Positions 3,800-63,355 of a stretch of 64,000 nucleotides of DNA are shown one piece after another. This DNA comes from Tetracentron sinense. Lineage: Eukaryota; Streptophyta; Magnoliopsida; Trochodendrales; Trochodendraceae. The number at the start of each line of letters is the position of its first letter. Within the stretch, counting starts at the first letter, position 1. The stretch covers positions 32,496,441-32,560,440 of the forward strand of contig CM026568.1 in assembly GCA_015143295.1 (NCBI GenBank), given 5' to 3'. The translations under genes were made by a program, and so were the position numbers. The notes beneath the pieces are model-generated. The model was not told where the DNA came from and searched no databases. It saw only the letters and a list, made by a program, of their open reading frames with translations.

Positions 3800-6700
3800 C
3801 TAACGAGCTGTGGAATTGGGTGGATCAATTCCCATTGACTTATAATATGTTTTCTCCGCATTTGTCAATCGGCCTTGAAACATTGTCCACTCTTTTCGAC
3901 ACCTCTCCCTCACCTGAGATGGGGAAAAAGAGATCAAATACTTGAGTTATCCGTGCTAATGTATTAAAGTAAAAGAAAATGTGCCCGGGTATCTTTACTA
4001 AGAGAGTATCTTTACTAAGAGAAACGTCAAAAATGTGCCCAGACAAGAGAGAGAGAGGTCACATACTCCTTCCCATGGTGCCTTCCCGTTCTGTGCTTGC
4101 CCCTATAGGAAGAAGAAAGCAGTGATTGATATTTATTCCACAAATTCAAAACAAGTGGAGGCAGATGGTTTTTTTTACCTGGTTCCCAAGTGAGGGAACA
4201 GTTTGATGAACAATCCACTGAGCATCTACAACTCCTATTTTTTCATGAGCAGGCTGTTTCCAAGAGAAATATGAGAAATGCTAGAAGGAGCTCGATTGTT
4301 GCCACAAGCAAAATAACATATTAGTAATTAAACACGAAATAGAAAGAACCATGAGGGTGGGAGGAGGGATCACTAACCTCTACGCATTTCCTAAGAGCAA
4401 AATCGAGACCCCAACCATGGACCAAGTCATTCTGCAGCGACACTTCATGAGGTTTTTAGACTTTAAAGTGACAATCGACAGGAATCATCTGAGGACTGAC
4501 AAGAGCTACATGAACCAATTAAGCTAATGCTTCATACCTGAAGCATATACCACACACATCGCCATGCATCTCGAGAAAACACAGTTGCCATGATCTCAAC
4601 AAATCTGCATTTAAGAGGGTGAACTAGTAAGATTTATTTATAACCCATTAACACTTCCTACAGGAACGGAAAATTTATACTAAAGACTGAACAGTGTCCA
4701 TACGCTGCACATGGAGGTAAATGAGGGTCGGTGCACCAGCCTGGTCTCTCCTCTGTTTCTCTGGTGAAAAAGAAAAAGATCAAGAAACGATGAATTTAAC
4801 TTAGGGTGGTCTTATGTGCACACCAATATTTGATGACTATACCCCCCATTTTTTAAAATTGATGACTGCACACCATTAGTTTATTAAAATTTTAAATGCA
4901 CACCAAAAATAAAATTAAAAAAACTTATAAATTTATAGTTGCACACCAAACTTTAAATTTATTAATTATAAGAAAGGAAGTGCTACTCTGCACGCATGCG
5001 TTCCACCCACTAGAACACATGCGCGCCCACAGCCCACCACACATTCATTTTCAAACTTTTTAATACAATTAAGTTTAACTAATATGATAATTTTTAAAAA
5101 AAATTTTAACTAATATGATTATTTTAAAAAAAACTAAGGTTAATAGGGGTGAGTGAATCTTAACCATAGTTAATGAGTGTTAACTAACTTGAGGTTATTT
5201 TTAAAAAAACCAAAGTTAGATGGATGAACCCTAGGGGTGAGTGAATCTAAATCACAGGTAATGAGTGTTAACTAACCTGGGGTTATTTTTCTAAGAACTA
5301 AGGCTAGATGGATGAACCCTAAGGGTGAGTGAATCTTAACCACGGTTAATGAGTATTAACTAACCTAAGATTATTTTTCAAAAATCCAAATGATGAACCC
5401 TAAGAGTGAGCGAATTTTAACCACAATTAAATGAAAGTTAAAAGGGACACATGGCATCCCGTGAAGGCGTGCGAACGCGCCCACGCAAAGAATCAGAATC
5501 ATTCTCCCTTGTAAGAATAGAGGATAATGCTAGCTTCACTTTAATTTGAGAATCACTTTTTTTTTTGTCACTAATTTGAGTCACTTTACCGAAGAATAAA
5601 TAATGCAAGCACACTATGGTGGTGTACCAAATTTTCTATACCATTGATCAATTTTCTCTCATTTTTATCAATTTCTATGACTTAAATAGTGGAAACTTCA
5701 AATAATCAAAAGTTGTCAAACAAATAATTAAATTTTCAATAGCTATCGATTAATCAAAGAAAATCAAAGACATGAGAAATTATATAATTAATTTTTAATA
5801 AAATGAATAAAATATTAAATAAAAAAATTGTCAAACTAAAAATTGAGAACATGATAAAATTTTGGTTAATGGAGAAACGATAATTAAATGAGACCATAAA
5901 GAGGTGATGACAAATAGAGAAGAAGTCAAGTTGAAAAATAAAAGAATTAGAAATGGGGTGTACATATAAAAATATAGAGAACTTCAAAATATACGAAAAT
6001 TATTAAATGAGGTGTAGTCATCAAATATTGGTGTGCCCATAACACCACTCTTAACTTAATGAACAGAAAATGGAGGTTTGTGGTGGTTGGGTGAAAGGAA
6101 GGGGCTATTCAATCATTATTACTTGTGAACTTCACGGTCCCCTCTTCTTTTTGTCATCTGCCATGTTAGTCCTCTGTTTGGTTCTAAACCAGGCTGTGAA
6201 ATCTCCAAGCCATGCTTCCTCACCAGTTTTATGTATCTGGAAATGAGGGGAAAAGATAAAACCTGAGTTTCAAGTTCACCCGGAAGTTATTTTCATGAAC
6301 GGAAAAATATTACATATCCAACTCACTCTTCTGCATTGAAATGCTCAACCCCCAGGTCTTCATCCCAGATAAATATGTAGTCATACGGTGCCACAATGTC
6401 AGGATGCAAAAACCGTTTTGCATACCACCTTGGACCAAATTTCAGAGAGTTTTTAAGTGATGAGCATGACTTAAAGAAACCTTACTGTAAAAATGTAGCA
6501 ACTTACCAGTAGAAAGTCAGAAATTTAAAATAACATTAGCAGGAATTCCTCACCATTTAGTTTGCTTGCGAGCACTCACATGGATAGCCCGCTTTGACCA
6601 CTCAAACTCATCCCATTCACTAGTCCGGCCATCATAATGAAACAGCAAGATGGTAAAGTTCTCCGAGAACTGTAGGAGAAGCACATTTAGTAGCTGAGCT

Positions 6701-9700: not shown

Positions 9701-12700
9701 AACTAAAGAACATTGCACTGTAAAGCTTTGCTCACGCCGTTAGGATGGTTAGTGACCTAAATACCATTTATACCTAGGTGAAATTGTCTTAGAAAACTTT
9801 TAAAGGCCCTAGGTGACTAGTTGCTAGCCTTGAAAGGCTTTGGGTTTTCAGAATTCCATTTCTGATCAGATTTTGGTAAACCGGTTGACCACCTGTTGCA
9901 TCCGGTCGACAACTGTTGGCAAAAATCAATTTTGTATCATTCTAGTAGCTGATATTGGAAAACCAATCAACCAAAATTCGAAATCAGTCGACCGCTATAG
10001 GAAGATTTTGCGAATTGCCAAATTCCAGTAGCCTACCAAGGCAATCTGGTCGACCACCCAAGAAAACCGGTCAAATAGATAGCACAGATTTTAGTGTTTA
10101 AGTTACACTACAATTCCTATATCGGTTTGACTATATAACCTATTGATCCCTTCTATCTAGGGTTTCCCAAATACCTTCGGTTGATCCTCATTGTTCCCCT
10201 CTCAGGTTTTCTCCAGTAATGCAAGTTTAATTCTATTCATATCATACTTGTATAGGATGATCTCCATACCTTTGTGAGATCCCACTGGAGGTTTGTTCAA
10301 ACCAATTCAAACATGTTACTACACAGTTGTTGAGTATTGGTTGGCATGAGCCAAAGCCGTCAGTGACGGAGATTAATCTTTGGAGATCGTGGTTGATATT
10401 CTTTTGAGAAAGAGTTGGCCAGTGAGGAATTGGAGCTACTGCGGCAAAGATCGAACCTGCAGGTTCGTGGACTTCAAGGCGGAGAATCTATACTGAGGAA
10501 CGTGGTGTCGTGTCCGGTTGGGTAAAATTTGAGTCTCATAGTGGATTGTGTATTGGATTAGGTCCCGTGGTTTTTCTCGAAAGGGTTTCCACGTAATTAA
10601 TTTCGTGCTCTATGGTGTGTATTTGATTTCTACTTTGTTGCTTAATTCGATAACTAATTTTTAAACTGACAGAAATTCTTAGGAAGACCTATTCATCCCC
10701 CTCTAGGTCTAAGGAATCATATCTCAAGTGTATTTTCATGTTCCAAAGGTACATCGACTGCTATATCACTATCAGGAGTTTCCACTTGGCAGAATAAATA
10801 ATTAAATAAATGCTGCAACAGTAAAGTCCACCCATTGGTAAAGCTGAACTTTGATGTATGGAGTAGCGGAAATCCAAATAGAACAAGACTACTCAGAAGG
10901 CAGAGTGGATATTTACCAAATGGAATGTTCCATACCCCCACCAGAACTCCAAAATGCGGATTCTACCTTGGTCGAATCTCAAACTTGCCCTTAGGCCTCC
11001 AAATGTAGCCTCCCCAATCAATTGATATTAGAAGATGGCTCTCATGATTTATTATACAGGTTGGAAAGATCAGAGTTTTCGAATTCTTGAAGATAGCAAC
11101 AAGATCAATAGTTTTAAGCAAAAGTGTCTGGTGCTGATTGGAAACATTTCAAGTGTGGGAGTGAGGACTATCTACCCTTTTCGTTTTCTGGAGGAGATCT
11201 TGGTTTTCTTCTAGTGCTTACTATCTTTTAGTAGCTACGTACTTCCTACCACAATTTTCAGGCTGAGAAATGGACGCTAGAAATATATATAATAATGGAA
11301 GTAGGAAACACAGCATTGGTAATGGTACTTATCTTTGATCAAAGAAAAAAAGCAAGAAACAAAGAGCGTGAAAGGTCAAGATTTGTGAGTAGAAACAAGA
11401 AAAGAATTGTGAAAATATATGACACTATTCTTAGTTTCTCAAGGGTTTTATAGAAGGCGGACAAACATAGGTCTCTTGTATGAACAAAACCCAGTAAAAG
11501 ATTTTTTCTTCAGAAACAAAAATTGAAAGCTGCTTCCATTCCTTCTATTCTCCTTTGAAGATTGAAGGATTTTTTATTGGCCAAGTTCATACAAAAAGAA
11601 GGATTTTTCGGTCTACCTTACTTTCTTCATTTTCCCCTTATATCAATAACTCAATCAAAAATGCAATTATCTACAAGAACGAAAAAAATTTTATGCTTAT
11701 TATCTTTAGTTTGATCTGTATCTATCTTAATTCTGCCCCTCATTCGAGCAGTTTTTTCTTGGCTAAATTGCCACAAAAATACGATAAGTGGATACATAAT
11801 TTCGAGGGAAGGTAATAAAAAATAGGAGAAAATACATTTACACCCCCTGAGGTTTGGCGAAAATACACATAGACCCCCTCAGTTTTCAGAAAATACTTTA
11901 GGTACCCTTGCTTTTCAAAATAATGGAACTTATACCCCTTCTGTGTGTGACAGTTAGTCAACTAACGGTTAGGCCCCCTTAGGTGGCCACATGCCCCTTT
12001 TTAACCCTTTAATTGTGGTTAAGATTCACCCACCTCCTTGGTTTTTAGAAAAAAATAATAAAAAATTATTAATCTTGGTTAAAATTTTCTAACTCCTAGG
12101 GTTAAATTTTTTTTCTAAAACTAAAGATATTTTGAGTGAACCCTAGGGGTGGGTGACCTTAACCATAGTTAAGGAGTGTACAAAGGGACACTGTCCCCTG
12201 AGGTGGCCACTTGTAAAAAAACCGGTTAGGGCCCCTGAGGTGGCCACGTCTAAAAAAACCGGTTAGGGCCCCTGAGGTGGCCACGTCTAAAAAAACCGGT
12301 TAGGCCCCCTAAGGTGGCCATGTGTAAAAAAATCGGTTAGGCCCCCTGAGGTGGCATGTGTCCCTTTTTACACATCCTTAATTGTGGTTAAGGTCACCCA
12401 CCCCTAGGGTTCACTCAAATATCTTTAGTCTTAAAAAAATATTTAAAAAAATTTAATCCTAGGAGTTAGAAAATTTTAACCAAGGTTAATGATTTTTTTT
12501 TTCCCTAAAAGCCAAGGAGATGGGTGAATCTTAACCACAGTTAAAAGGTTTAAAAAGGGACACATGGCCACCTAAGAGGGCCTAACCGTTAGTTAGCTGA
12601 CGGTCAACACACAGAAGGGGTGTAAGTGCCATTATTTTGAAAAGCAAGGGTGCCTAATGTATTTTCTGAAAATTGAGGGGTTTATGTGTATTTTCGTCAA

Positions 12701-13456
12701 ACCTCAGGGGGTGTAAATGTATTTTCCCCTAAAAATACTTTTTAAAAAAAAACTTCTTATCATTCCGCTCAAGAGTAGTGTTAAAAATAATTCTTTTAAT
12801 AACTCTCACAGGTGGCCCTTTAAGTTCTTTATTTATAGAACTGATTGGCAATTAATACAAGAAACTTTCATACTGATAAGCTCAAACCTGGAAGATAAGG
12901 AGACAAGAATTGAAGATGGCTTTACGTTAGGAATAACGACTCAACGAGATGGTTCCATTAAGTGCTCATTTTGAAGCGGATAGGGTAACAAGAATGGAAA
13001 TCGAGCACTTAAATAGCATTACAGTTTGAAGCCAAGGAAAATTCCTAATATTCATATCGAGATTAACAGAACAGGATATACCTTCGATGTATCATTCAAG
13101 TTTTGAGCTTGAGTTGAGCTGCTTCTATTACTCTTCAGAGAAGACCAAGCATGCAATAGTGTTTGAGTTGAAAGGCCTGATTTTTTGTCTTCAATGTACG
13201 TCAGATTAATGGAAGGAAAAAGACTGGACGGGAAGTTCAGCTTCCAAATTCAGACACAAGAAGATAAATTTATTGTCCTTCTTGATAAAAGCAGCATAAA
13301 ATTAAAAAAGTAGCAGAACCATATACATTGACATAAAAAGAAATGATGAGAAGAGTTTGCGACTTTGTGTACCTTGGTTAATGAAAGCGTTGGAAAGGAT
13401 ACTCCTATCAAGAATCCGAACACGACTCCAACAAAAGTTGTTATAATAAGCCTCAT
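3800..13456 (-). CDS. DUF707 family protein (lysine-ketoglutarate reductase trans-splicing-related-like)
   Basis: Thirteen coding exons, 388 aa. Exons from the start: 13456-13373, 13240-13082, 7658-7554, 6831-6748, 6669-6554, 6428-6327, 6236-6123, 4760-4704, 4604-4538, 4431-4378, 4253-4179, 4102-4067, 3913-3800. All introns are GT-AG, the phases agree and the sum is 1167 nt. Residues 3-22 form one hydrophobic segment (FVGVVFGFLIGVSF), suggesting a type II endomembrane protein. The DUF707 (PF05212) region follows: LPPGIIASESDFYLRRLWG, TFTVGYDQRNNIDAAVKK, YDYIFIWDEDLGVEHF, HGLEISQP, FVEIMATVFSRDAWRCVW, NDLVHGWGLDFALRKC. The WDED motif resembles the DxD metal site of GT-A glycosyltransferases, so an enzymatic role is an inference; family function is not established. 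The start is the first ATG in frame; the open frame upstream has no ATG. Intron 2 is 5.4 kb and holds several transposons. Confidence 0.93.
4804..6050. mobile_element. 1.25 kb TIR element inside a DUF707 intron
   Basis: The terminal inverted repeats are about 36 bp. The left end is GGGTGGTCTTATGTGCACAC and the right end, reversed, is GAGTGGTGTTATGGGCACAC; both continue into CAATATTTGATGACTA. A perfect 8-bp target duplication TTAACTTA flanks it (4796-4803 and 6051-6058). It is non-autonomous, with no transposase. The interior is AT-rich and holds three rounded copies of the recurring 'gtgaatcttaacca' module at about 5140-5440. The 8-bp duplication points to hAT, although the termini are not classic hAT. 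It lies wholly within the intron between exons 6236-6123 and 4760-4704. Confidence 0.85.
6707..6724. repeat. GA microsatellite in a DUF707 intron
   Basis: A short (GA)n run, followed by a G run, lies in the intron between exons 6831-6748 and 6669-6554. Confidence 0.8.
8713..8998. mobile_element. MITE of the 'CATAGT...ACTATG' family (copy 1)
   Basis: The left end is catagtaaaaataa; the right end is ccccgaccttttgactatag. The interior is AT-rich with short inverted segments (aattattcccgaa type). It matches the better preserved copies at 37754-38116 and about 41840-42100 in its right-hand ccgaacccygacttNgtNactat end. No clear target duplication was found for this copy. Confidence 0.5.
9740..10715 (+). 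mobile_element. LTR-retrotransposon remnant, probably a Copia solo LTR
   Basis: The sequence runs from about ttaggatggttagtgacc to a terminal stretch reading 'attcatccccctctaggtc'. That stretch is typical of the 3' end of large plant Copia LTRs. Inside are 'gagtctcatagtggattg' and 'gggtttccacgt', also common in such LTRs. No internal coding region is adjacent on either side, so a solo LTR is the simplest reading. The limits are approximate. Confidence 0.45.
10716..11823. other. Unassigned intron sequence
   Basis: This is part of the 5.4 kb DUF707 intron 2. Weak open frames (for example 11555-11815 +, 10941-10717 -) have AT-rich codon content and no recognisable domain. I see nothing further that I can support. 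Confidence 0.4.
11824..12730. mobile_element. 907 bp foldback element inside DUF707 intron 2
   Basis: The two arms (about 11824-12110 and 12440-12730) are near-perfect inverted copies, about 290 bp each. The outer ends read aggagaaaatacatttacac on the left, and aggggaaaatacatttacac on the reversed right. Flanks share AAAAAT on both sides, or TAAAAATA with one indel, so a 6-9 bp target duplication is likely. There is no coding potential. The loop holds a 37-bp tandem array. The arms contain the recurring 'ggttaagattcaccca' module. Long arms and tandem repeats fit a foldback or Mutator-like non-autonomous element. Confidence 0.85.
12195..12362 (+). repeat. 37-bp tandem array in the foldback loop
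   Basis: Four full copies and one partial copy of a 37-bp unit containing 'cctgaggtggccac' and 'aaaccggttaggg' lie at 12195-12231, 12232-12268, 12269-12305, 12306-12342 and 12343-12362. Copies 2 and 3 are almost identical. Confidence 0.9.
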
Positions 13457-37399: not shown

Positions 37400-40300
37400 A
37401 CCTCCTAGGATTGACAATAATCTAGACAAATTAACATTTAATGTCGTAAAGCTTGAATGTAAGTCTTTCTCTGCTGTTAGTTGACTTTTTGATCATGTAA
37501 ATGAAAATATTTTTGAAGACTAATTTATGAGACTTTTTTATCTGACTTTTGGGTCTAAGAGGCCAATCTACATTAGCATCTTCTCTCTTGCTATGTCATT
37601 AGTAGTGTCCCTTTGCCTTTTCCATTTGGAGCCAGTTCATTTTTCGTCTTGGGATCATTTGGACCTTTCCTAGTTCCCTTTGTATTTTTTATCGGGTTGG
37701 CTTTCAATGTCTTTGGAGGATCCTACTTCGGTGGTTTGGGCTATGCTTCCGGGCATAGTTACCAAGTTCTCTAATTTTTTCAAAAAATCCTGAATAATAC
37801 TCGAATTTTTCTTCGAACAATTAATTAACGAAGTATTCGTGACTTTTGGAAAAAATAGCGACTTTTTCAAAATGTTGCGAATTTCGCAAATTAAACACGA
37901 ATTATTCACGAATTTTTTTTAAAAGTCCTGAATAAATATCTAATATATGAAGTATTTTTTTTTTAATATAATTTTCAAAATTTGTAATCTTATTATATAT
38001 TTCTCAATATATTGCTCGCCATTTTCCCGAATTATTGCTGAATTTTCCGAATTTTGTTGGTTTTTCTGAACTATTCCCTAGACGAATAATTCCAGAACCC
38101 CGACTTGGTAACTATGCTTCCGGGTGCTATATGTTGGTTTCTTTGGATGGAAAGAAATAGGAGTGTTTGATGGTATCACTTCTTCTAAGGAGCATGTCTA
38201 TTAGAGAAGTGGGCAGCTTCTTCTTTCTTCGCGCTCGATCAAGAAGGATTTTGAGGAAGAGGGGTTATTTTCTGTGATATTATAGTGTAGTCCCTCCCTC
38301 TTTTCATTTTGCTTCTTCTAGTAGACTAGCAACCTGCTTTTGGCCTTGTGTTTTCCTGTAGTTTTTTTTTTCTTTTCGGTTCATATCCTTTGTGAGCTTT
38401 TATAACTATTGGGTTTGTTAATTGCCTTTATTTTTACTAGCGGGTGGCACGTACGATGCACATGAGAGCGAGGGGAAGGAGTTAACGACACCCGATTGAA
38501 CTTGCTAGTGGCATGTGCAATGCACGTGAGAGCGAAGGGAAGGAGTTAACCACAGTTAATAAGAATTAAAAGGGGCACATGTTAACCCACGGGTGTGATT
38601 GAACTCTCCCGAGGTCAATCGCGATTGGCTGTGATTCTAAATAGATAGATGGCAAGGGGACAAGGGGTAGTTTAAGAATTAAAGTAAAACATTAAATCAA
38701 AGGCAAGGGTAGTTTGGGAATTAAAATAAAACATTAAATCAATGTTTTGTTTTTATATAAGGGTAATTTCGGAATTTCGGAAAATCATCTACACATGCCT
38801 CTCGCATTATAATAGTAAAGATATATCATATTGCTTTTACTGATAAAAAATGCCATTATTATTGTTGCTGTCAGGTTTTCCAATTTTCTGTTCCATATGT
38901 ATGATGGCATCATAAATCCAATCAAGCTGTGTAATCATAGCTTTAGGTGAATGTCATTATGCTTCTTGTGTACATCTTGTCAAATCTTCTTACATTATAT
39001 TTTCAAGCTACATATAATACTAGGGTTCAGGTGAATCATTTATTTACTCAGTGAGTACATGCTATATATATAATTATACGTATATGACCTTTTTCCTATC
39101 TTAATTCCATTGGTGAATTCCTCTATGACCCTTTGCATGTCAATGCAGCTCCTGAGGTGGTTGAGAAGCCTGGTGATATTACATTATCGAAGCTCAAGAG
39201 TTTATATGTTCATGCAAAAGAGCTTTCAGAAACTGAAGTAAAGTATGTCTACTCTATAACTTTGATGAATGATTGACAGATACTGATATAAGAGCATAGG
39301 GATACAATCGTGCAATTATGTTTGAATGTAAATAAGAAAGACTAGGGAGTGGAACTCTTTTGTGAAATTGGGGAATTGAGGATCTTGTAGATTTTTCATT
39401 CTTGAAGATAACACCTCTTGTTTCTGTTAGTTGTGCAGTAAATTACAGGGGTATTTTATCCAACTTTGACTCTTTACACCTTATAGCAATCCCTATTTTA
39501 TAACCTTAGTCTTTTTGACCTAACTTTGATGCTGTATTCTTCTGCAGTATTTCAAATCTGTTGGTGAGCCAACTGGATGCTCTTTTGCAGTCTGGACTTC
39601 CAGCACAAAATCGGAAAAGGATGGGTGTGTGCCAGAACTTTTGGGCCATATTTGATCGTCTTGTGAAAAGATTGTTGCTTGATGTTGAAATATGCTTCTA
39701 ATGGAAACCTTATAATGACTCCCAGCTACAAAAATCCTCAGCTTTTACAAATGTTGATTGTTATTTGTTCGGAATGACTTCCCACTACATATTCTATATG
39801 ACACTCATGTTTAGTTTAAATAATTCTGTTTATGTATGTACATATATACTTCTTGTCCTAGGGTTAAATACTAGTGTGACCCAGTATGTATGTCATTAAT
39901 TATCTAAAGAAGTCTCACTACTGATGTCTTAAATAGTTAATTGTGTATGTGATGATTGTACATGTTATATAAGAAGTCCCCTAGACTAATATTTACTTGT
40001 TTCCCCTGTTATCAACTCGCTATGGTGTAAACAATGATAAGCTAAATTATGATGTCCTGACCAGTAAATCGAGGAAGGGAACAATATCTAATACTACACT
40101 GGTACATTTCTATAGTGCAACCCTAAAACTCAGTGTTTCAGTTTCACATAAATTTTTAAAGGTGGTTGCACAATCAACAGCATGGTGTTTGATGTGTATT
40201 GGACTACTCACTAGCACATGACATACAAATGAGGATGTAACCAAGGAACTCAACATCAGCAAGTTAAAACAAACTAAAATTGGATCCCCTATAAGGTTAA

Positions 40301-56559: not shown

Positions 56560-57368
56560 CCAACAACTAGGGGTGTATCCAAATCAAGCTAGCTCGTAGT
56601 TCGGCACGGCTCAGCCCGAAAAAGCCCGGTTTGACCTTAAAAAATAGGCTCGATCGAGCTAAGCCGAGCTATATTTTGAGTTTGAAAATGTATTTAAGCC
56701 GAGCTCGAGCCAAGGCCTGTTTGATTCAGCTTGGCTTGGCTCGGTCCGATTGAGGCTCGGGTTCAGCTCAGCTTGAATATTATATAAAAAATAATATTAT
56801 ATATATCATTATTATATATAAGTAATATAATTATTATACATTTAAATAATATTATATATATATCTTTACTATTATAATGGGAGAGGCAGACATAGCCTGA
56901 ATTTTCCGAAATTTTTAAACTACTCTTATATAAAACAAAACTTTAATTTAATATTTTACTTTAATTCTCAAACTACCTTCATCTATCTATTTAAAGAATA
57001 GAATCACAGTAAATCACGATTGAACTCGGGGAGAGTTCAATCGCACCCGCGGGTTAACACGTGTCCCTTTTAACTCCAATTAACTATGGTTAACTCCTTC
57101 CCCTTGCTCTCACATGCATCACACGTGCCACCCGCTAGTATATAATAATAATATTACTATTTTTATTTTAAAAATATTTTTTAATAATTCAATATGCGCC
57201 AAAGCCAAGCTCGAGCCTAAGCGAATAGATTTGAACTGAGTCGAGCTCGAACATAGTTGAAAATTTTTCAAACTAAGCCGAGCTCAAGCATAGATGAAAA
57301 AAATTCAAACCGAGCCGAGCAGGGCCAAGCCCGGCTCAGCCTGGATCAAATACACCCCTACCAACAAC
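56560..57368. mobile_element. hAT-type MITE interrupted by a Helitron
   Basis: Element 56568-57360 starts TAGGGGTGTATCCAAATCAA and ends GGATCAAATACACCCCTA. A perfect 8-bp target duplication CCAACAAC flanks it (56560-56567, 57361-57368). Interior arms carry 'gccgagctcgagcc' repeats. The Helitron 56863-57138 sits in its AT-rich centre. Confidence 0.92.
56863..57138 (+). mobile_element. Non-autonomous Helitron (family 1, copy B)
   Basis: Starts TCTTTACTATTATAATGG after A at 56862 and ends GCCACCCGCTAG before T at 57139. It shares both ends and the interior ('gattgaactc', 'ttaactatggttaact') with copy A at 38437-38821, in the opposite orientation. Confidence 0.88.
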
Positions 57369-59348: not shown

Positions 59349-59983
59349 TGCGTACACAGGGGCGGAGCCACATGGGGCCCAGGGGGGGCTGAAGCCCCCC
59401 CTCAACTTTTGGGAATTTTTTTTTTTGCATAGTGTAATGTGGGTGTGGCCTAGGAGCAAGGGCAAAGCCGGGTGGTAGTGGGGGATCTAAGCCCCCCCTG
59501 AAAATTTTGAGAAGAAATTTTTTTTTTTTATATTTATATTATTTAATTTAAGATGGCGTAGGCATATGAAAATGCTTAAATTACCGGTGTTTTTCATCAT
59601 TGAATGAAATGGCCGGTCCTCATTGGTCCATGCCCTTCTTTAACCCTCACCAATTGTGGTTAAGATTCACTCACTCATAGAGTTAAGCAATCCAACCTAG
59701 TTTTTTAGAATTAAAAAATAATAAAAATCTTAAATTTAATTTTGATAAGCTTAACTAGAGTTAAAGGAGTGTTAAAAGGGACACGAGGACACGACGGTAA
59801 GTTAAGCAGTGGGTTTGCTAATCATCACTACTCAAAACTATATTCTTTACCAACGTACAAAGAGACGAGATGACCCACAAACTTGGCACTAAATTTTTTT
59901 TTCAAGGGCTACGCCCCCGAACCCCCACATCTCACCATTAGCCCCCCCTAGCCAAAAATCCTGGCTCCGCCCCTGTGCGTACA
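59349..59983. mobile_element. hAT-type non-autonomous element nested in the Helitron
   Basis: Element 59357-59975 begins CAGGGGCGGAGCCACATGGG and ends CCTGGCTCCGCCCCTG. A perfect 8-bp target duplication TGCGTACA flanks it (59349-59356, 59976-59983). Subterminal 'gaagcccccc' and 'ttagccccccc' are inverted. The centre (59630-59800) holds one copy of the recurring 'ttaaccctcaccaattgtgg' module. No coding capacity. Confidence 0.95.
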
Positions 59984-60231: not shown

Positions 60232-60470
60232 TAATACAAATTGAGATGTGATCATATTACGCGGGGAGACACGTGGCCATTTAGCTCTCATTAACTGTGG
60301 TTAAAATTTAGGGAATGGAAAACGAACTCCATGGTTAACTTAGGGAAATGAAAATGGACCGCACCGCGCAATCTCATTGGTCCATGCCCTCCCTTTGAAC
60401 ACCCACTAACTGCTAGAACTCATCCATCTAACTTTGGTTTTTATGGAAAATAAATAAATAAATATATTTA
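60232..60470. repeat. Copy of the recurring palindromic module
   Basis: 'acacgtggccatttagctct', 'ttaactgtggttaaaattta' and 'tctaactttggttttta' resemble the module at 12000-12550 and 61370-62570. Borders are not resolved. Confidence 0.5.
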
Positions 60471-60664
60471 TAATTTAATTAAACCTTTTTTTTTTATTGA
60501 GGGTATCATTTAACTATGGTTAGTGGTTAGAACAATGGTTAGTAGTTAGTTTGGGAGAATGGAGCTTTTGCAGATTCGTCACCCTGGGGATTGGATCCCA
60601 CACCTCCCTCAATCGAGAGGCCACACCACCATTGGTGCAAGAGGCAGGTGTAATTTAATTAAAC
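60471..60664 (-). mobile_element. SINE with 14-bp target duplication
   Basis: The insert 60485-60650 lies between perfect repeats TAATTTAATTAAAC (60471-60484, 60651-60664). The poly-T at 60486-60495 marks the A-tailed 3' end on the minus strand. 'gtggcctctcgattgaggga' precedes 'gtgggatccaatcccc', in box A / box B-like order on the minus strand. Confidence 0.85.
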
Positions 60665-60792
60665 TTAACCATTGTAAAAAAAAAAAAAAGGATTAAAAGG
60701 ACGACAAGACATTGCGGGTCAAAATTTTATTAACTTTTAAATAATTTTATTTTTAAAATATTAATCTTGAGATTAAATTTTCTAAACAACCA

Positions 60793-61137
60793 AATTGAAA
60801 AGGCAATTAAAGAGGCTTAGGAGTACCATTGAACTCTCGTGAGTTCCACTCGCCGGTTATAAACAACCAGAATTGAAAAGGCAATTAATGATATTGAAAA
60901 GGACACATCCTGTGCAGGTGTATCCCTTCCTTAGGAAGGAGGTTCCGGGTTCCATTCCTAAGAGGGTGAGAGTGGGTTACACTCTCCACCCATCTTTAAC
61001 TTAGAACAAATACTGACTTGCTAACTGAGGTTGCAACCTAACAGTGTGTCTCATACCAAAAAAAAAAAAATTTAAATTGAAAAGGCAATTAAAGAGGCTT
61101 AGGAGTAACATTGAACTCCCGTGAGTTCCACCCGCTA
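60793..61137. repeat. Direct repeat flanking the SINE
   Basis: 'aaggcaattaaagaggctta' at about 60798 is repeated at about 61082. Each is followed by 'attgaactc[tc]cgtgagttcc'. The second copy ends 'ccacccgctagt', identical to the 3' end of Helitron family 1. Confidence 0.7.
60893..61085 (+). mobile_element. SINE with 10-bp target duplication
   Basis: The insert 60903-61075 lies between ATTGAAAAGG repeats (60893-60902, 61076-61085). 'gaggttccgggttccattcc' is a box B-like region. It ends 'ctcatacc' and 13 A residues. Confidence 0.85.
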
Positions 61138-61371: not shown

Positions 61372-61716
61372 TACTTTAGAGATCAGAGAGATCGAATCAC
61401 AACCAATCGCGATTGAACTCTGTAGACCCACATGTCAACACATGTCCTTGTTAACCCCTATTAACTATGGTTAAGATTCACTAACCCTAATCTAACCTTG
61501 GTTTTTAGAATAATATTTTAAAAAATATTTAACTCTCGCTAAGAACTTTTAACCCTTCGGGTTAATATTTTTTCTGAAAACCAAGGTTAGATTGTTGAAC
61601 CTAAGGGTTAGTGAATCTTAACCACAGTTAATAGGGGTTAATAGGGGCACACATTGACCTGTGGGTGCGATTAAACTCTCCCCAAACTCAATCGTGATTG
61701 GCTGTGATTCGATCTC
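61372..61716. mobile_element. Foldback element 1 of a cluster
   Basis: Almost the whole 345 bp folds on itself. The left arm starts gagatcgaatcacaaccaat; the right arm, reversed, starts gagatcgaatcacagccaat. Within each arm lie 'cacatgtc', 'taactatggttaagattcac' and 'aaccttggtttttag'. No coding sequence. Confidence 0.8.
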
Positions 61717-61986
61717 GAGATTGGATTACAATCGACACCTAAATGTCAACACTTGTCCCTTATCATTAGGATTTAACAATCTAACATTAGATTTTAGGAA
61801 AAAAAAAATATTTAATCATGATTAAAAAAATTAACCAGGTTAATATTTATTTTAAAAACCAAGGTAATATTGTTCAACCCCAAAAGTTAATATATCTTAA
61901 CCACAATTAATAGAGGTTAAAAGGGACATGTGTTGACCTATAGGTTGAGGAGAGTTTAATCACAATCGACTGTGATCCAATCTCCC
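61717..61986. mobile_element. Foldback element 2 of a cluster
   Basis: Left arm 'gagattggattacaatcgac', right arm reversed 'gagattggatcacagtcgat'. The centre repeats 'aaccaaggtaatattg' / 'caatctaacatt'. It adjoins element 1 without spacer. Confidence 0.75.
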
Positions 61987-62007
61987 TTTTTCAAAGGTAC
62001 GGTTTGC

Positions 62008-62183
62008 CCCATTTGAAGTGAATTTTTTTTTGGGTATGCTGTAATCATTTATCTAACTATGTCAAGAGATCAACAAGGTTAGCACTCATGGTGAGCGTCA
62101 ACAGCCACACCAATGACTCGAACACGAGTCTCCACTCCCTAAAGGGAGATACATTACCACTGGGACAAACCCATTTGAAGTGA
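62008..62183 (-). mobile_element. tRNA-derived SINE with 14-bp target duplication
   Basis: The insert is 62022-62169 between perfect CCCATTTGAAGTGA repeats (62008-62021, 62170-62183). On the minus strand, 'gtcccagtggtaatg' is box A-like and 'cgtgttcgagtcattgg' box B-like. The A tail appears as poly-T at 62023-62031. Confidence 0.9.
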
Positions 62184-62184
62184 G

Positions 62185-62575
62185 TTGGGATCACAGTCAA
62201 CGGCAATCCCAGGTCAACACGTCTCCCTTTTAACGCTATTAATTGTCGTTAAGATTTACTAATCTTTGGGTTCAATCATTTAACTTTGATTTTTAAAAAA
62301 ATATATTAACCCTAAGGGTTAAAACTTGTTAGCTAGAGTTTTAAAAAGGCTATTAAGAATATTAACCCTATAGGTTAAAAAAAGGCAGTTAAAAATATAT
62401 TTAAAAAAATTAACCCTAAGGATTAAAAACTCTAAATCAAAGTTATGTTGTTGAACCCCAAGGTTTAGTGGTTCTTAAGCATAGTTGTAGGCGTTAAAAG
62501 GGACATGTATAGCTGTGGAATCTGATTGAACATAGGGAGAGTTGAATCGCAACAATGATCCAATCTCCACCAGCA
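62185..62575. mobile_element. Foldback element 3 of a cluster
   Basis: Left arm 'ttgggatcacagtcaac', right arm ends 'gcaacaatgatccaatctcc'. The centre has several 'ttaaccctaagg' / 'ccttagggttaa' repeats. The arms carry the same module as elements 1 and 2. Confidence 0.7.
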
Positions 62576-63355
62576 GTAGCCCTTGGAATCGTTAAAAGGA
62601 ATTAAAAACAATAATAATAGTAATAACAAAAATAAAAGAAATTTAGTTTTATTTATTTATTTTTCACATCAAGACTTGGATAAGCATGTTGTTTGTATAG
62701 AGAATAATACTTGCATTTGATGCTGCATATATCATCTCAACTATGCTACGGTTAAGATTGTCCTATCACATGATGATGACGACCCATCAGAGCTCGTAAC
62801 CGTAGTTTAATTGGTTGACATTCAGCACCGCATTTTGCTCTTGGCCACTAAGATGGCATTTTCCTTTTTAAGTCAAAGGAAGACATTAGTGGGATGTAAC
62901 CCTGAGAAGATAAGAGCATGGATAGAAATAGTGGAGTGACTAGCCAACCCCGCATTTAACCCTCTTTTAACTATGGTTAAATTTAATTAAATTAAAATTA
63001 ATATATATACATATATTCCTAAAAACTAAAATTGGATGAATGAATTTTAAGGGTAAGTGAATTTTAACCGTAATTAGTGAGTATTAAAAAAAAGTCTGGA
63101 CCAATGATGACCTGCATTTGGCTACATAACAAAATGCGCGGTACTTAAAAATTTTTCTGGATAGAGATATAAAGAAAACTGAATGAGAGGCCTAAACCCA
63201 TTCCGCCAACTTTTATTAAAAGTCAAATACACATGATTGAGAGCTTTACCTTTACTAAGTTGAGGCTCCCACCTCCTAGCTCCTTATGTAGAAGTATTAA
63301 TAGATTTAACATTCACAGCACATTCATTATTACTAGTTACATAATTATAACCTTC
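62576..63355. other. Intergenic AT-rich DNA with a partial module copy
   Basis: 62950-63090 holds 'ttaactatggttaaattt' and 'aagtgaattttaaccgtaat', a decayed copy of the recurring module. Nothing else recognised. Confidence 0.45.

Follow-up and report, generated by a model that had tools for sequence, protein, structure and literature searches.

Which enzyme mobilises a DNA transposon is determined by the ends of that transposon. Among the described elements closest to those considered here are the Tm1 Mutator/Foldback elements of root-knot nematodes, for which 9-bp duplications and empty sites are described together with composite repeats and asymmetric tips (PMC3169594). The subject of our analysis is a 64,000-nucleotide stretch of Tetracentron sinense DNA (the window), together with related copies elsewhere in the genome, in which a palindromic module recurs. 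Judged from sequence comparison, the terminal inverted repeats (TIRs) of a large and old group of foldback MITEs (miniature inverted-repeat elements) of the Mutator-like kind appear to have this module as their inner block. We found no description in the open-licence literature of the module, or of an exchangeable outer block, i.e. several unrelated outer blocks placed on one inner block at a fixed spacing.

The original prediction, made from the window alone, was that one palindromic module is common to three adjoining foldbacks and to a series of other transposons and free copies. This was borne out by a half-module profile HMM built solely from 75 copies on another contig (C1; the window itself belongs to C18), which matched every place that had been named: 5124–5458 (four halves), 11981–12573 (two full modules), 38546–38587, 57052–57093, 59630–59792, 60269–60449, 61434–62509 and 62953–63092. 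The top match at each of these places had an E value between 1e-20 and 2.6e-4 (69 to 17 bits), and nothing comparable was seen when the window was shuffled ten times with a first-order Markov model (640 kb in all), where the top match had an E value of 0.41 (9.7 bits); two extra matches in the window, at 60507 and 62736 (E 0.67 and 0.93), are at chance level. The inner parts of the elements are AT-rich with runs of A and T. Chance AT-rich or simple-sequence resemblance between the copies is ruled out, with a probability which we put at close to nil, by these profile matches when set against the shuffles and by the 21-base core TTAACYATGGTTAAGATTCAC, which has 4,690 exact occurrences (2378 + 2312) in the 1.16-Gb genome of 1479 contigs compared with none for the reversed control.

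We classed the ends of the elements by their tips (F1, GAGATCGAATCACAGCC; F3, GAAGCCAAATCCTCTACGG; F4, F7 and others). The three adjoining foldbacks are real, with edges placed partly by eye. The leftmost is an F1-type Mutator-like foldback at 61388–61716 in which the end-to-core distance is 73 on the left and 85 on the right because the left hairpin has been partly deleted; it has a possible 9-bp duplication (GAGATCAGA/GAGATTGGA, 7/9 matching) which also resembles the element tip, and its relatives are found genome-wide, with the top-scoring other places ~75–83% identical. It directly abuts a second F1-type foldback (61717–61984), whose outer hairpin region has decayed, and the third (62182–62568, the right end placed by eye) is F1-like with the end GAGTTGGGATCACAG and extra internal repeats. 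A 14-bp perfect direct repeat, CCCATTTGAAGTGA (62008–62021 and 62170–62183), surrounds an insert of ~148 bp that has a T run on one side and by eye looks like a SINE on the minus strand, and a 62-bp direct repeat (95% identical; 60792–60853 and 61074–61135) surrounds a stretch of ~220 bp which may contain another SINE-like sequence.

The region 60236–60460 had been predicted to be a free copy of the module; two half-modules are indeed matched there (60269–60449, plus strand; E 2.6e-4 and 3e-4, the weakest of the matched places), but these are decayed and lie in direct rather than inverted order, with the F7-type CATTGGTCCATGCCC preceding the second. An F7-type palindromic module copy with putative ends is found at 62953–63136, and a CATTTGGCTA..(C)AAAATG palindrome was recognised by eye at 63115–63136. 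Within the foldback at 11824–12730, whose ends are of the GGAGAAAATACATTTACAC type, ~40-bp tandem repeats lie between two full palindromic modules (11981–12191 and 12352–12573), and a relative (L018) has a 9-bp duplication with one mismatch.

The termini of the named carriers do differ, as had been claimed. The TIR element at 4804–6050 has the ends GGGTGGTCTTATG / GAGTGGTGTTATG and an 8-bp duplication, TTAACTTA, at 4796–4803 and 6051–6058, and holds a nested Mutator-like element at 4975–5508 with M5 ends (AGGAAGTGC.. / GGGAGAATG..), four half-modules in tandem and a target duplication of TTATAAGAA (4966–4974) / TTGTAAGAA (5509–5517), 8/9 matching. The element at 59357–59975, with CAGGGGCGGAGCC ends and the 8-bp duplication TGCGTACA, has a CAGGG-type end which we take to be of the hAT type, and contains an F7-type module copy (~59567–59814). 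Two copies of one Helitron-like family, with TCTTTACTATTATAAT 5' and GTGCCACCCGCTAGT 3' ends, lie at 38436–38822 (minus strand) and 56862–57139 (plus strand); the former holds half of an F1 element (38546–38637) truncated at the core, and the latter the same F1 half (56998–57093).

Our wider locus sample consists of 70 loci consecutive along C1 (0.37–10.4 Mb), which were chosen by an exact 21-mer and are non-random over the genome, plus loci added through queries, and the loci behind the 31 end pairs analysed for duplications include L002–L008. The module-bearing elements are small foldbacks, mostly of 345–365 bp, in whose inverted repeats the module forms the inner block. The self-inverted arms span most of the element, and in F1 and F2 copies the inverted self-alignments cover nearly the whole ~345–365 bp (long terminal inverted repeats); half-modules also occur in tandem. 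A 9-bp target duplication with no more than two mismatches was found for 20 of the 31 same-group end pairs (six perfect), compared with 0/310 shifted-flank controls; four of the 20 are of low complexity (L028, L054, L083 and L092), and L005 and L008, which are among the duplication pairs, look like a single duplicated locus. Perfect duplications were seen for F1 (L002 twice), F2 (L017, L039, L080 and L084) and F3 (L011), and the target duplications at L002 are e.g. TTGTGTATG and AAGTATATC. Such 9-bp duplications, when combined with long inverted arms, are characteristic of Mutator-like foldback MITEs. A Pfam scan of 10 open frames from the loci linked no transposase to these ends and no autonomous partner was found, and the assignment to the Mutator-like elements is therefore argued from the 9-bp duplication and the long repeats.

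Other observations in the sampled loci concern the surroundings and arrangement of the copies. Open frames beside a hAT copy (L063:2046–3077) include a SWIM zinc-finger fragment found by Pfam and a zinc-knuckle-like CxxCxxxGHTRPRC recognised by eye; these are possibly the remnant of a MULE transposase and are not linked to the module-bearing ends. At L009, L020, L034, L035, L038, L049 and L057 the half-module is repeated in direct tandem, with units spaced at roughly 100 bp (F5 type). Several module-bearing element ends lie inside 1–2.5 kb at L027, L048, L053 and L058, which suggests that these elements also nest in or beside each other.

The ends share a common architecture, in which a tip of ~17 bp is followed, in the two best-sampled end groups, by a palindrome and then by the common inner block, in which the core begins ~84 bp from the end; F2 tips differ between the two ends of the element, with GACYGGTGATCTTCTCC at one and GGCACCTATTCCTCTCC at the other. 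When end groups were compared with positions counted from the core and small shifts allowed, the outer block (−85 to −40) of different groups had an identity of 0.37–0.49, which is at the level of the random control (0.41–0.43); the related F2 and F3 groups reached 0.51–0.64. In the windows lying between −28 and +80, with the selected core set aside, the between-group identity was 0.47–0.80 compared with a control of 0.41–0.44. The outer ~45 bp is specific to each end group and the inner block is common. Within groups, the outer block from −70 to −40 had an identity of 0.86–0.91 for F2 and 0.67–0.69 for F1, a conservation which is partly by construction because the end-type labels were assigned through our own motif patterns in the outer block, and the F1 outer block (0.59–0.72) is kept no better than the F1 inner block (0.58–0.84).

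A point not made in the original proposal is that the module forms part of a composite terminal repeat in a Mutator-like group, whose members have the inner block in common and differ in the outer one. Both of the alternatives proposed originally are partly true. That of a mobile foldback is supported in so far as the elements to which the module belongs have 9-bp duplications, and copies of the 4804–6050 carrier occur without the insert.

A tree of the inner block (75 copies, 15 of them without an end type, with many forks unresolved) required 24 changes to accommodate the 13 end-type labels (the minimum being 12), compared with 50.3 for shuffled labels, and none of 200 shuffles was as low. 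Only F8, F10 and F2p formed single groups; F1, F2, F5 and F6 needed three changes each, and F3, F4 and F5b were not clustered. The labels thus cluster on the tree with some types scattered, so that module and end type are clearly, though loosely, linked.

The distance from the end to the core, for which the search was confined to 40–109 bp, is nearly the same in most of these groups. The median start of the core is 85 bp from the end for F1 (n = 37), F2A (n = 18) and F2p (n = 20, overlapping F2A), 84 bp for F2B (n = 12), 86 bp for F3 (n = 11), 86.5 bp for F4 (n = 6) and 83 bp for F7 (n = 5), so that seven of the ten tip types have a median spacing of 83–87 bp. The exceptions are M5 (78 bp, n = 5, largely copies of one insertion), F1b (78 bp, n = 9) and F1c (76 bp, n = 4), and single F1 ends scatter from 46 to 95 bp. 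Near-equal spacing in groups with unalignable outer sequences argues against random insertion of the module, and for change or replacement of the outer block in register.

The consensus sequences of the F1 and F2/F3/F2p end groups contain a palindrome with its centre 35–36 bp from the end and a stem score of 11–13, which was equalled by 0/1000 shuffles in each of F1, F2A, F2B, F3 and F2p. The palindrome was not significant in the F4, F7 and M5 consensus sequences (24, 80 and 225 of 1000 shuffles were as good, respectively). Among single copies a stem score of at least 8 was found in 31/75 (six of these are A/T runs), compared with ~1.2 expected from shuffling and 4/75 in flanking DNA; one F4 copy (L055) has a 10-bp stem which finds no support at that place in the F4 consensus. 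We also counted paired changes in 42 F2/F3/F2p ends picked by hand, with rows lacking a recognisable spacer or module left out and some starts shifted manually. Paired cells in the arms amounted to 87.2% compared with 76.6 when shuffled (0/1000), and double-change cells to 42 compared with 15.8 ± 2.9 (0/1000), and it should be noted that these figures are inflated to some degree by the relatedness of the ends and by our having shifted a gap to the loop ahead of the count, a step that favours the structure. For the same 42 ends there was no excess of pairs with a double change (6 compared with 5.1 shuffled, 328/1000) or of further pair types (6 compared with 5.1, 340/1000).

One explanation for these sequences is that a dimer of the transposase may recognise the outer palindrome. 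In maize, the site bound by MURA is at a similar place within its repeat. For plant Mutator-like elements, PMC3310237 gives only a motif of ~32 bp. An alternative, which we regard as somewhat unlikely, is that the palindromes have been kept through errors of replication or repair, in which template switching corrects near-palindromes: this would likewise yield matched changes in both arms, and is favoured by the unmatched arm changes seen by eye in many F1 copies, but it sits less well with the finding of the palindrome at the same position in two unrelated end groups.

The way in which the module entered other transposons is clearest for the 4804–6050 carrier. It had been proposed that carrier copies lacking the module, with a clean short duplication at the junction, would support a mobile module, and among the matches listed there are at least 19 copies without the insert (counted by hand), running from position 185 to ~720 of the query. 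Judged from coordinates, the two pieces of the query overlap at the junction by exactly 9 bases in 15 copies, by 13 in one and by 5–6 in three, the last because the second piece begins 3–4 bases later. The overlap agrees with the duplicated TTATAAGAA / TTGTAAGAA, and the element at 4975–5508 is therefore an insertion with a 9-bp duplication. At least 11 filled copies, that of the window included, are also present among the matches listed (counted by hand), and several of the empty copies may represent one subfamily, as their scores are near-equal.

Helitrons are characterised by the lack of a target duplication, a 5' TC, a 3' CTRR with a nearby hairpin, and insertion between A and T, and we judged the 3' end, hairpin and insertion site of the Helitron-like family by eye against these hallmarks. 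All 40 scored copies of this family include the F1 half and are nearly full length, and apart from the window's own they are 91–93% identical; each of the four paired copies also holds the F1 half, with TCTTTACTATTATAAT at the 5' and CCCGCTAGT at the 3' end. In the hAT family the module was inside 40/40 scored copies (97–100% identical over 618–619 bp), and flank repeats of at least 6 bp were found for five of six fetched copies, including the window's own (L059), with L060 imperfect. Both sets of counts favour module-bearing copies because the queries contained the module. A query of joined flanks without the module gave no empty hAT copy among the 40 scored: the left flank was found in 40/40 and the right flank was also listed in 37, ~240 bases further on, and no match crossed the junction. 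The inner copy in the hAT element has F7-like ends and no clear flanking duplication.

The proposal that separate element families had captured the module is supported for the Helitron-like and hAT families, given the F1 half in 40/40 Helitron-like copies and the F7-type copy in 40/40 hAT copies. Eight independent captures in the window are not required, as the sampled copies can be accounted for by a single acquisition in each carrier family and its later amplification. The module lies in other transposons through ordinary nesting and hitch-hiking, and a small element which reaches several repeat families in this manner can mislead repeat annotation. At L066:1421–3023 we observed nesting at three levels, with an M5 element with tandem half-modules inside a 4804-type TIR element inside a Helitron-like copy.

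We consider it probable that the module is the inner TIR block of an old Mutator-like foldback MITE group with one ancestor, in which the outer block has been replaced or shifted and the carriers are secondary. A Mutator-type transposase from undetected autonomous elements would cut at the tip and might bind the palindrome of the outer block, a site of two-fold symmetry. Families with different ends would descend from one ancestor, with the inner block retained and the outer recognition block undergoing a few replacements or shifts in register; copies of the module would then have inserted into other transposons, or been captured by them, in the ordinary way, and been carried along. A stricter version with modular terminal repeats is possible but somewhat unlikely: here a family-specific and often palindromic recognition block of ~48 bp would be swapped as a unit and in register, with the spacing kept near 84 bp (about eight turns of DNA), and several Mutator-like transposases would mobilise one inner design.

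Pack-MULEs capture gene fragments, and separate Mutator-like families could have captured the module independently in this manner, or acquired it by recombination or gene conversion as in the Galileo chimeras. This is what might be expected from outer blocks which cannot be aligned on inner blocks which are common, and from the scatter of several end types on the module tree (F3, F4 and F5b unclustered, F6 with its three changes), and chimeric copies produced by ectopic exchange are described for Galileo (PMC3573991). However, none of the nearest end pairs in the 31-pair analysis joined two different groups, and when any ends within 1.3 kb were paired, the cross-group pairs at L010, L028 and L031 were without a duplication of one mismatch or fewer. 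The nearly constant spacing also points to few and old events rather than to frequent exchange; we regard independent capture or exchange as rather unlikely. It is quite improbable that the module is a small independent foldback transposon which inserted near the middle of several unrelated MITE families. The palindromic nature of the whole module, its many contexts and the two complete modules within the 11824–12730 foldback would all be accommodated, but the duplications are at the outer ends of the F1 and F2 elements, with none noticed incidentally at the module's own edges, the median core spacing of seven of the ten tip types, unrelated ones included, is unlike random insertion, and end type and module sequence are associated on the tree.

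Returning to the probable reading of one ancestral group with replaced or shifted outer blocks, the exchangeable outer block is the most interesting part of these elements. Unrelated ends at a near-constant spacing from one inner block, in thousands of copies in one genome, would permit testing of how transposons change enzyme, with gradual co-evolution, exchange between families and capture as the testable routes.

Like Tm1 (PMC3169594), the module-bearing group has 9-bp duplications, composite terminal repeats built from domains, MITE-like members and empty sites, and short outer motifs which differ between the two ends (here the F2 tips GACYGGTGATC and GGCACCTATTC); in contrast, Tm1 consists mostly of 14-bp tandem units with one end design, whereas here several unrelated outer blocks, some with a palindrome, are found with one inner block at a nearly fixed spacing. 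Similarities are also seen to Muta1 of Aedes aegypti (PMC5225508), which has long composite repeats (type-2 foldback), 8–9 bp duplications, a palindromic terminal motif and nonautonomous derivatives with varied interiors. The transposase of Muta1 is known, and its terminal palindrome is of 10 bp and accompanied by 12-bp tandem repeats, whereas the palindrome here is subterminal with arms of ~11–13 bp or more, and no transposase was found. The tandem blocks of the F5 arrays and of 4975–5508 in the window recall the plant Mutator-like elements with tandem terminal repeats (PMC3310237), in which it is the terminal repeat that is duplicated, whereas here the half-module alone is repeated. Finally, Galileo of Drosophila (PMC3573991) shares the long-TIR, foldback-like form and has subfamilies which exchange parts, but it belongs to the P-element superfamily, with 7-bp duplications and two-TIR chimeras with mismatched flanks; unlike those chimeras, the families described here have been amplified with matching duplications.
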